Made by a program: the position numbers and the translations under genes. This document shows positions 54,448 to 59,781 of a stretch of DNA of 64,000 bases, piece after piece; positions within the stretch are counted from its first letter, which is position 1; every line of letters starts with the position of its first letter. The DNA is from Halobacteriales archaeon YIM A00010 (lineage in GTDB: Archaea > Halobacteriota > Halobacteria > Halobacteriales > Haloarculaceae), in NCBI GenBank assembly GCA_025041175.1, contig JAKCFJ010000003.1:806001-870000 (forward strand). The letters are read 5' to 3'. The notes under the pieces are model-generated. The model made no database searches. It saw only the letters and a list, made by a program, of their open reading frames with translations, and was not told the DNA's origin.

Positions 54448-56382
54448 TTAATTCAATTCGTCTGCCGTAATCTGCGTGTATTTGTCCGCTATCCCGGCCG
54501 CGTCCTCCGGAAGCAGCGCGACGATGAGATAGGGCGCGTAGTCAGAGAAATACTCAATGAGGTCCGCGATACGCCCTGAATCGATCGCTTCCAGGGAATC
54601 CAGCAGCATGAACGGCACTTCCTGATACACTTCGTGAACGAGATAGCCCGCGAGTGCGACTACCAATCCGATTACTTCGCGTTCGCTCTCACTCAAGTTC
54701 GCTACCGTATCCTCGTAGACGGAGCCGGTATCCGACTCTCGAACGACGTGTAGATCGAACGTCGATCTTTGATCGTTCTCCTCTTTCTTCCGTTCAATCC
54801 AGACACGCGATATGTTCCGATAATCTAGTATATCTAATATCTCGTCCATTTGATAATTGAACTCGGAAACGGACTGCGACTCGAGTTCAGCCACCCGTCC
54901 GCGCTCGTGGTTGAGTTCCTGTCGGATTTCATCGAGTTGCTCCTGCAGTTTCGACTTATCGGGCAATGACTCAATCTCTTCGATCTCATCTTCGACGGAG
55001 GCCAGCTCCTGTTGTTTCTGACCCTGCTCGTACTGCAATTCGCTAATTCGCTCGTAGGTATCCAACAGATCGCTGTCGCGTAACTCCTCGGTGTTCGCAA
55101 CACTGCTCTCGAGTTCACTGACTGTTTCGCGTAGCGCCTCCGCTTCTGCTTCCAGCTCCGTTTGCCGCTCTTTCTTCGACTCGATTTTCCGTTCGACTTC
55201 GTCGATTTTATTATCGAGTCGGTCTCGTTCCTGGATCGACTCTCGAATTTCCTCCTGTTCGCTCTCCAGTTCGTCGATTCGAGATTCAAGGTCAGCGGAC
55301 TCGTTTCGTTTTTCCGTGATTACGTTCCGAAGGTTTTCCAGTCGATCGGCTATCGCTCCACGCTCGGCTCGATTGCCACAGGTCCAGCACGTGATTTCCT
55401 GCTCCTCTTTTGGGGCGAGTTCTGCGATCGGATCCGTGCCAATAGATTCCTCAGGTAAGTTCGAGACGCTGTCGGAAAGGATATCCTCGTTAAATTCGAC
55501 GATCGCGGAGAGATCCGTTACCGTGTTCTCGAGTTCTCGTTTCCGATTGCGAACCGTTCGTAGCTCTTCTTGAACGGTATTCAGATCAGCTTGCGTGTAG
55601 TCTGAGAGCTCCTCGCGCTCGGTACGGAGTTCTTCGGGTCGTTCTCGTAGTGCGTCGATTTCGGCCGTTACCAGGTCGATCTGGTCGGTGACTTCGTTTA
55701 CCTCTTTCCGGCGCTCGTCGAGTTTGTCGACGAGTTCTTCGGCTTCTTCCGCCATTTCGATGTCGGCCTCGTATTCAGTTACCTCTGCACGAAGTGACTG
55801 AATCTTATCCTCTAGCTCCTCGAGTTCCGACGTGAGCGTTTGTCGTCGTTCTTCTAACTTCGGTAGCTCTTTCGAGCGTCTCTCGATGCGATCGAGTTCG
55901 TCCTTAATCTCTTCCCGCTCGGTCTTCAAGCGCTGGATGCGCCGTTCGATTCCGGCCGTGTCCACGGGCCGCATAATGAGCTCTCGGAGATCGTCGCCGC
56001 GCTCGACCGCCAGGCGGGGAGGATTATCCTCGAGGAGGGAGATGAAGAGGTCGATAAGCTCGCTGTTATCTTCATATGGCTCTCCCGTTATCTGTACGCC
56101 AGCTCCAGTGCGCGTATATCGGCGTGAATACTCCGTGTCATCGATTGTCAGGGAAACGTACCCCCCGTCCTCATCGCTTTTAACCGTCGCGTTCGTCCCG
56201 CCAAGAATGCCGCTGATCGCTCGAAGCAGACTCGTTCGGTTCGTCGCGTTCCGTCCGGTGAGGAGATTGACTCCACGCTGAAATTCGACGGAGCAATTGT
56301 CGATTCCACCCATGTTTTCAGCCTCCAGCTCGACCACATCGTCGATAGCTGTGCCCTTCACGGTCCCATTCGAAGATGACAT
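54448..56382 (-). CDS. Archaea-specific SMC-related protein (Rad50/SMC-like ATPase)
   Basis: 644 residues. The ATPase head is split at the two ends: an atypical Walker A LTGRNATNRTS (41-51; Arg and Thr where GKS is usual), the ABC signature LSESEREVIGLVVALAGYL (about 575) and Walker B VPFMLLDSLEAIDS (about 600). Between them lie two long coiled coils (about 145-295 and 340-520) around CWTC (332-335), a Rad50-like zinc-hook motif. It should fold back and dimerise through the hook. Archaea-specific SMC-related proteins carry this GRNATNRTS form. A role in chromosome or cell-shape organisation is suggested by the rdfA gene upstream on the same strand. Confidence 0.85.
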   Translation of the reverse strand: MSSSNGTVKGTAIDDVVELEAENMGGIDNCSVEFQRGVNLLTGRNATNRTSLLRAISGILGGTNATVKSDEDGGYVSLTIDDTEYSRRYTRTGAGVQITGEPYEDNSELIDLFISLLEDNPPRLAVERGDDLRELIMRPVDTAGIERRIQRLKTEREEIKDELDRIERRSKELPKLEERRQTLTSELEELEDKIQSLRAEVTEYEADIEMAEEAEELVDKLDERRKEVNEVTDQIDLVTAEIDALRERPEELRTEREELSDYTQADLNTVQEELRTVRNRKRELENTVTDLSAIVEFNEDILSDSVSNLPEESIGTDPIAELAPKEEQEITCWTCGNRAERGAIADRLENLRNVITEKRNESADLESRIDELESEQEEIRESIQERDRLDNKIDEVERKIESKKERQTELEAEAEALRETVSELESSVANTEELRDSDLLDTYERISELQYEQGQKQQELASVEDEIEEIESLPDKSKLQEQLDEIRQELNHERGRVAELESQSVSEFNYQMDEILDILDYRNISRVWIERKKEENDQRSTFDLHVVRESDTGSVYEDTVANLSESEREVIGLVVALAGYLVHEVYQEVPFMLLDSLEAIDSGRIADLIEYFSDYAPYLIVALLPEDAAGIADKYTQITADELN

Positions 56383-56688
56383 TACTCGCCATTTTGCTCT
56401 CCGTCCATTTATAACTCCTGATACCGTCTAGTCATCAATCAAGTACTTCCTCGATAGGGTGGTGGTCGTTGAGTACTTGATCAATCGTTGATAATTATAG
56501 TAGTAGACGGAGCGGCCAGCCAGCGTATTATACCGTCGGTCATGGACCTTAGAACACTCGGTTGCCTGTTCACCACGGGACGGACCGCGACTCACCCAAC
56601 AAGCGATCGTAGCGTATCAATGGATATGACCGACGGTATAGTGTCCGTCACAAGGTTTCCAACGCTGGAGGCACACAGAAGAGAGAAT

Positions 56689-57180
56689 GGACGATCGAGA
56701 GAACGTGATCAAACGCCACCTTTCACGGGGGAAATCGACGAGGCACTGAATGCGGCCCAGCAGGCGGACGAGGCCCGTCTCGTCCGCCTGCTGAACTGCA
56801 TCAAGAACCTCTATGCGGGCGATAGGCTCACAGAAGCTGCATGGTGTATCGGTGTTGACACATCGACGGTGAACGCGTGGACCGATGCGTGGAACGACGA
56901 CGGTCTCGATGGACTGCGACCGAGCTTCGGGGGCGGCCACCCCTCGAAGCTCTCCGACCACCAGCGAGAGCGACTCAAACGTGTTCTTGTGGAATATCAG
57001 CCGTGGACAACCACCGAAATCACGCTCTTGATCGAGGACGCATTCGACGTGTCTTACTCTGAACTGCATATCTCTCGCCTCCTCCGGACCTTCGGCACGA
57101 ACTACGCCATTCCACGACCAGAAGCCCCTGATCGTTCGGAGAACGCTGAGGAGCAGCTTGGCGAGAACTACCGACAGAAC
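56689..57180 (+). pseudogene. IS630-type transposase N-terminal remnant
   Basis: MDDRENVIKRHLSRG, then a frameshift, then EIDEALNAAQQADEARLVRL, NLYAGDRLTEAAWCIGVDTS, GLDGLRPSFGGGHPSKLSDH and PWTTTEITLLIEDAFDVSYS up to ENAEEQLGE. It has the two HTH domains but no DDE domain. It relates to, but is not the same as, the element at 5642. It lies in the gap between rdfA and the SMC-related gene, opposite to both. Confidence 0.7.
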
Positions 57181-57182
57181 AG

Positions 57183-57845
57183 TTACTGTCCAGTCGAACC
57201 AGCGTTCTCATCGGAGTGACAGGCACACGTTCCCTCTTTCAGTAGTGTACTAAACCGGTACGTCGAACCACACTTCGAACACGTTATCTGAATCATGACG
57301 GAGACTTTAGCATCGCCGATCGCTACGAGCTCCGCGCTGGACAGTCGAGATATCGTCTGTGCGACGACCCGACTGCACCGAGTCCGGGCCCATTCGATTG
57401 TATTTCTCGCGGTTTCAGCGGTGATACGAGTAGTACGAGCCGTATCGATGTCGAGGCAATCGTTGAAATGCGCGCGGACGGTCGGATGCGTAACCCAGTG
57501 TGATTCGATTTCCTCGATATCGACTCCCGTTTGTTCGAAGCGTTTGCGGACCCTCGCCTCTCGATCGGCCGGCACATCATCGCTCGTGAGCGTTTTGTAA
57601 ACGGCTTCCAACGCATCGTCTGCGCTGACGGCTCCGTATGCGACGTTCGCGAGATCGGTTCCCGTCTGGGAGAGTACCGCATCGAGAATCCGTTTGTTGA
57701 TATGATCCGCGAGAGCCCGAAGGCTCGCGTCTTCCTCGTTACGGCGATATTGCAGGTCCTCGTTTAATCCGGCGAGATCGTATCGGTCGATGTCCTTCCC
57801 GATTTTGCACGAACACTGTTGCTCACTGTCGACTGTGTTACTCAT
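57183..57845 (-). CDS. rdfA: Rod-determining factor RdfA-like protein
   Basis: 220 residues from MSNTVDSEQQ (ATG 57845; an in-frame ATG at 57881 is less likely). The family start CKIGKDIDRYDLAGLNEDLQ is clear, then SLRALADHINKRILDAVLSQ, YKTLTSDDVPADREARVRKR and GVDIEEIESHWVTHPTVRAH, ending with a Cys motif (CSKCGSTYRF, CAC). RdfA is needed for rod formation in Haloferax volcanii. The last about ten residues (SDENAGSTGQ) may be altered by the adjacent IS remnant. It was presumably once in one operon with the SMC-related gene. Confidence 0.82.
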   Translation of the reverse strand: MSNTVDSEQQCSCKIGKDIDRYDLAGLNEDLQYRRNEEDASLRALADHINKRILDAVLSQTGTDLANVAYGAVSADDALEAVYKTLTSDDVPADREARVRKRFEQTGVDIEEIESHWVTHPTVRAHFNDCLDIDTARTTRITAETARNTIEWARTRCSRVVAQTISRLSSAELVAIGDAKVSVMIQITCSKCGSTYRFSTLLKEGTCACHSDENAGSTGQ

Positions 57846-59527: not shown

Positions 59528-59781
59528 ATGAGTTCTAGTACCATAGAACAGCAACCAGACGGAAGTCACTCGAGGGGAAAATGATCGGTTTCCTCGAGAA
59601 CGCGAAAACGAACGCGGACGTGTTTCTCAAAGAGGTTTCACGCATCTTGACCGAAGAGTACGGCGTCGAAGAGTCGATTCATCGGTCGAAGGATAACACA
59701 GCCATTTCCGCGGGGAGTAGCGCCTCGTATCTGGCGACTCACTACACGTGGTTGATTCCTGTTCGGTCCGCGGTTACGTGA
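59528..59781 (+). pseudogene. UGSC-family protein fragment
   Basis: ATG 59528 opens 18 codons ending in TGA. In the overlapping frame from 59581 it reads MIGFLENAKTNADVFLKEVS and LTEEYGVEESIHRSKDNTAI. This resembles the N-terminal part of UGSC-type proteins (IGFLxNxKxNAD), which continue to a Cys/Sec-containing motif missing here. A frameshift near the start and the loss of the C-terminus make it a pseudogene. Its end converges on the acyl-CoA dehydrogenase stop. Confidence 0.5.

Follow-up and report, generated by a model that had tools for sequence, protein, structure and literature searches.

The window, a stretch of 64,000 nucleotides from Halobacteriales archaeon YIM A00010, carries two adjacent and intact genes of known families: rdfA and sph, the latter coding for an archaea-specific SMC-related protein (ASRP). 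Taken as a whole, the finding is probably best explained as an intact member of the known RdfA-Sph pairs, with a gap full of debris, an sph gene read from its own promoter, and an Sph scaffold partnered by RdfA. The pair belongs to a sub-clade carried on Natrinema megaplasmids, and its intergenic space has gathered the N-terminal half of an IS630 transposase, a 112-bp MITE and a further scrap of a transposase. By analogy with Haloferax volcanii, Sph may form a zinc-hook-linked, coiled-coil scaffold of the SMC type, placed on the DNA or at the cell periphery. RdfA would be its dedicated partner, and the two together may tune cell shape, motility or the maintenance of genome copies.

The two genes and their pairing across genomes

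The first-pass annotation had placed rdfA and the gene of an SMC-related ATPase on one strand; the family models agree with it, and its coordinates are correct (Table 1). RdfA matches PF21811 over the full length of the profile (163.7 bits, E 6e-48, cut-off 27, positions 1-195 of 195). ASRP matches NF045487 with 617 bits against a curated cut-off of 300 (positions 1-593 of 593). Both genes are intact, and each can be aligned with its orthologues over the whole length. Identity to the three Natrinema orthologues is 65-72% for RdfA, over a full-length alignment, and ASRP is 74-77% identical to its Natrinema plasmid orthologues. As the C-terminus of RdfA matches the orthologues up to the last residues, the insertion sequence did not truncate rdfA.

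Table 1. Coordinates of the genes, the promoter element and the mobile-DNA pieces, as positions in the window
Feature	Position	Strand	Description
sph (ASRP, archaea-specific SMC-related)	54448..56382	-	644 aa; NF045487 617 bits; CWTCG hook, non-canonical Walker A/B
sph TATA box	56406..56413	-	TTATAAAT; about 25-32 bp before the ATG
Integrase-core (IS3/IS481/IS6-like) transposase C-terminal scrap	about 56445..56525	-	81 bp
112-bp MITE	56529..56640		15-bp perfect terminal inverted repeats TATACCGTCGGTCAT; TA at both ends
IS630 transposase N-terminal remnant	56731..57166	+	without the catalytic half; end close to the rdfA stop codon
rdfA	57183..57845	-	220 aa; PF21811 163.7 bits; aligned with the Natrinema orthologues

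RdfA has a helical N-terminal part and a zinc-ribbon-like C-terminal end with the pattern CxxC...CxC, and the same two elements are found in its predicted model (mean pLDDT 89.5). This model gave no fold match at E<=0.001 in the PDB or viral libraries. Neither the PADLOC (defence) nor the PHROG (phage) family library returned a match to RdfA, and no relatives were found in viral contigs and phage records. In the AlphaFold model of ASRP (mean pLDDT 85.7), the head is of the SMC type and is joined to a long coiled coil with a zinc hook; the structures matched by the model are those of Rad50, SMC and Lamassu proteins. The hook, CWTCG at residues 332-336, is invariant in 31 alignment rows and is flanked on both sides by antiparallel coiled coil. 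By sequence, no solved structure was matched by either protein.

The first-pass annotation had also suggested a joint role for the two genes and a survey of their co-occurrence. The survey was carried out across 39 genomes of the order, and the families proved to be usual neighbours rather than the rare ones that would have refuted the suggestion. A neighbour within 1 kb was found for 55 of 63 ASRP and 55 of 77 RdfA genes, one contig common to two genomes being counted twice (53 of 61 and 53 of 75 without the duplicate). By a rough reckoning, the chance adjacency of two genes that each occur about twice in 3.5 Mb would be well under 1% per genome. The order rdfA>sph on one strand is seen in 46 of the 55 pairs, the other nine being arranged differently. 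The window pair is itself of this kind, with both genes adjacent on the same strand and no intact gene in the gap. At one locus (L155, G017:C130), 958 bp separate the HMM matches, and an extra ORF, apparently hydrolase-like, lies between sph and rdfA.

The partners also diverge together. In a mirror-tree comparison, the pairwise distances of the two families correlate with r=0.88, the maximum among permutations being 0.36. In the RdfA and the ASRP tree alike, the window pair is placed next to the same rows, and the terminal branches of its genes are no longer than those of N. halophilum. The suggested joint role is thus supported, the families being adjacent in most genomes, co-diverging, and both being needed for rods in H. 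volcanii, but it was known before. Schiller et al. found 42 of 54 RdfA genes and 42 of 50 SMC-like genes to be adjacent in 2024, and H. volcanii mutants with either gene deleted were disk-only and non-motile (PMC10869688). In the NCBI annotation, two of the Natrinema orthologous pairs already bear these names. The RdfA-Sph pairing is therefore real but already published, and the window holds an ordinary example of a known pair. A physical partnership of the two proteins, and the cellular role of this copy, we infer by analogy.

Transposon debris and the sph promoter

The gap between rdfA and sph (56383-57182) is 800 bp long, among the two largest in the 55 pairs, and three pieces of mobile DNA lie in it. 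These old transposon pieces added about 500 bases to the spacing. An IS630 remnant had earlier been taken as the only thing between the genes; the remnant is indeed there, and the MITE and the transposase scrap had been missed. The match of the remnant to NF033545 reaches 95 bits (cut-off 100) and covers profile positions 5-136 of 299. With only this part left and the score below the cut-off, a complete IS630 element was rejected. Residues 82-226 of the ORF are 51% identical to an IS630 that is repeated in another genome of the same family (G009), and no second copy of the remnant was found in the genome of the window.

The 112-bp element is short and non-coding, with terminal inverted repeats and near-identical copies at unrelated sites, as is characteristic of a MITE. 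There are 13 copies in this genome, each with 1-8 mismatches from the consensus and with unrelated flanks. A pattern search of 145 other genomes of the family returned no copy with perfect ends, and no autonomous partner was found. A second MITE subfamily of about 110 bp has the ends TATACTGTCGGTCAT, and MITE copies are present on contigs C1, C2 and C3 of this genome (G000). One copy (G000:C1:2187321-2187432) is found immediately upstream of the chromosomal SMC gene, and an end of the second subfamily (C3:297295) is about 130 bp away from an unpaired rdfA; both placements are possibly due to chance.

Over 84 bp, the transposase scrap shows 85% identity to the final part of an ORF at G000:C1:484648, which itself matches rve_3 just above the cut-off and the IS3/IS481/IS6 transposase models weakly. 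When the gap was aligned with the orthologues, clear similarity was confined to the 25-30 bp immediately upstream of the sph ATG; the exact edges of the insertions are, for this reason, not fixed.

The block GAG(A/T)(A/T)T(A/T)TAAATGG is common to the window and the three insertion-free Natrinema orthologues, and the TATA box in it stops about 25 bp short of the ATG, the position expected for a leaderless haloarchaeal transcript. For a wider comparison, the start codons of sph genes were chosen blind to the promoter, by how far they lie from the Walker A motif and with a preference for ATG. Over 33 sph loci, the A+T fraction is highest at positions -29 to -26, where it reaches 0.79-0.94. An A+T-rich 6-mer falls in the TATA zone at 25 of 33 loci, against 21% in background zones, this being a second set from which near-copies were dropped and to which four plasmid loci were added. 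As a rule, an sph gene has a TATA box of its own, 26-32 bp ahead of the ATG.

Since the TATA block is present in the insertion-free orthologues and most sph genes have a TATA box, sph normally has a core promoter of its own. In the window, this block is on the ATG side of the debris, and thus the insertions widened the gap but left the core promoter in place. In all likelihood, transcription of sph starts from this conserved leaderless promoter, which no piece of the debris separates from the gene. The sequence upstream of about -50 has been replaced by debris; upstream regulatory sites may have been lost in this way, and the regulation of sph altered. As the two genes keep the order rdfA>sph on one strand in 46 of the 55 pairs, some read-through co-transcription is possible as well. 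Insertions between the genes, with the promoter kept, argue for a linkage by function and not by a shared transcript.

The ATP site of Sph and the role of the pair

In ASRP, the Walker A motif is N-terminal, and the signature and Walker B motifs are C-terminal; all three are altered (GRNATNRTS, LSESERE and LLDSLE). The alterations are not peculiar to the window, as the haloarchaeal ASRPs share a conserved non-canonical site with GxNATNRTS, LSESERE and DS for DE. Among 38 ASRP sequences (the window copy and 37 from relatives), the Walker A lysine is replaced by Arg in 35, the Walker B aspartate is followed by Ser in 36, and the signature starts with LSE in all 38. In the Rad50-like proteins of this genome, the corresponding motifs are GENGAGKSS and ILDEP. 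These changes suggest slow or absent hydrolysis, although another residue could act as the base. No discussion of this odd site was found in the literature searched, an absence that is not proof of there being none.

A tentative further reading, possible but on the whole doubtful, is that the site was altered and then conserved so that the nucleotide is bound as a slow switch or a structural glue, with no motor turnover and with RdfA as the dedicated regulator. In the altered site, Arg takes the place of the Walker A lysine, Asn that of a P-loop glycine, Ser that of the catalytic glutamate of Walker B, and LSESERE that of LSGGE. If true, such a protein would be better suited to act as a scaffold or a cytoskeleton-like element than to extrude loops. 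The conservation of the odd site makes the question of motor versus scaffold testable for Sph proteins.

What a pair does in the cell may depend on which copy is considered. The genome holds seven full RdfA genes and five full ASRP genes, and the pair on contig C1, which is common to all the same-genus genomes searched, may correspond to rdfA-sph3 better than the window pair does. Fragments of a broken ASRP gene and of two RdfA C-termini lie elsewhere in the genome (G000:C3:376345-377035, C3:61086-61205 and C4:423095-423190); these are signs of a turnover of RdfA-Sph pairs. In H. volcanii, cells without sph3 no longer form rods, whereas those without sph2 are mostly rods; gene conversion is impaired in each of the four sph deletions (PMC11276520). 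A 2026 paper calls Sph3 plate-promoting (PMC13286277), which conflicts with two papers from 2024 (PMC10869688, PMC11276520). The requirement of RdfA for rod formation was shown only for HVO_2174 (PMC10869688). With several paralogues present and with opposite effects of Sph proteins on shape, the rod function is not transferable by name to the window copy. Since the paralogues differ in the very sign of this effect (PMC11276520), a cell-shape role is no more than putative for it.

Other explanations can be given for the same locus. A gap that is among the two largest of 55, made up mostly of transposon pieces, could be the scar of an rdfA-sph operon that was cut by IS630, with sph now on a newly recruited promoter, perhaps supplied by the IS or the MITE. 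The first-pass annotation had likewise supposed a split operon, with the ATPase gene compelled to acquire a new promoter. This is not supported by the comparison with the three insertion-free orthologues, in which the core promoter of sph is the same, with the same TATA block; in the window, the debris stops upstream of that block. A TATA box of this kind is present in most sph genes of intact pairs, and 9 of the 55 pairs are not arranged as rdfA>sph, so that co-transcription is no fixed requirement. We regard a cut operon as most improbable.

The role itself could also be a different one. RdfA-Sph pairs may be accessory, plasmid-linked modules for DNA sensing or defence, resembling Lamassu or Wadjet, or for plasmid maintenance, rather than shape genes as such. 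The many copies per genome, their patchy presence and the occurrence of ASRP in 122 plasmid records would suit this; further, the best PADLOC match is LmuB, and Lamassu structures are among the fold matches of ASRP. However, the LmuB match is weak and falls partly on the coiled coil, and RdfA has no PADLOC, PHROG, phage or viral match and no PDB fold that suggests a nuclease. The phenotypes of the Haloferax deletions are those of shape, motility and gene conversion (PMC10869688, PMC11276520), and a defence or maintenance module is thus considered very unlikely. In another view, recombination and the conversion of genes from one genome copy to another are the main business of the pair, the shape changes being secondary. 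The Rad50-like fold of ASRP is in line with this, as are the lowered gene conversion survival of the four H. volcanii Sph deletions and the opposite shape effects of Sph2 and Sph3 (PMC11276520). That study, however, reports on Sph only and not on RdfA, and the rod/disk phenotype of rdfA equals that of sph3 (PMC10869688); we hold this view to be unlikely.

Relation to known systems

ASRP is like Rad50 in its SMC-type head, long coiled coil and CxxC zinc hook. Rad50 is nevertheless a separate family, the window protein scoring 617 bits as ASRP against 63 as Rad50. The Walker A lysine and the Walker B glutamate are missing from ASRP, whereas the Rad50-like proteins of the same genome have both. 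No mre11 gene was recognised beside the ASRP gene of the window. An assignment to Lamassu was rejected, the similarity to LmuB being weak and RdfA having no PADLOC match.

The closest characterised system is rdfA-sph3 of H. volcanii (HVO_2174-HVO_2175), in which the same two families are adjacent and both are described as needed for rods (PMC10869688). The window copy differs from it in belonging to a plasmid sub-clade: in a tree made without HVO_2175, the pair groups with the plasmid copies of Natrinema and Halococcus and with Halobacterium Sph2. Of the flanking ORFs that were scanned, none was recognised as ddfA-like.

The pairs on the megaplasmids of Natrinema caseinilyticum, N. gelatinilyticum and N. 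halophilum are direct orthologues with the gene order of the window. Their gaps are about 277, 278 and 420 bp, respectively, against 800 bp in the window, and no IS630 piece or MITE was recognised in these three. Acyl-CoA dehydrogenase genes lie near the pair in all three Natrinema species, and N. caseinilyticum has a full UGSC gene near it as well. In the window, a short ORF (59581-59781) matches the start of UGSC-family proteins and is probably a truncated gene. In Halobacterium salinarum, Sph2 adjoins RdfA on pNRC200 with a gap of 60 bp; it is 44% identical to the window ASRP and shares its ATP-site motifs, except for GRNATGRTS.
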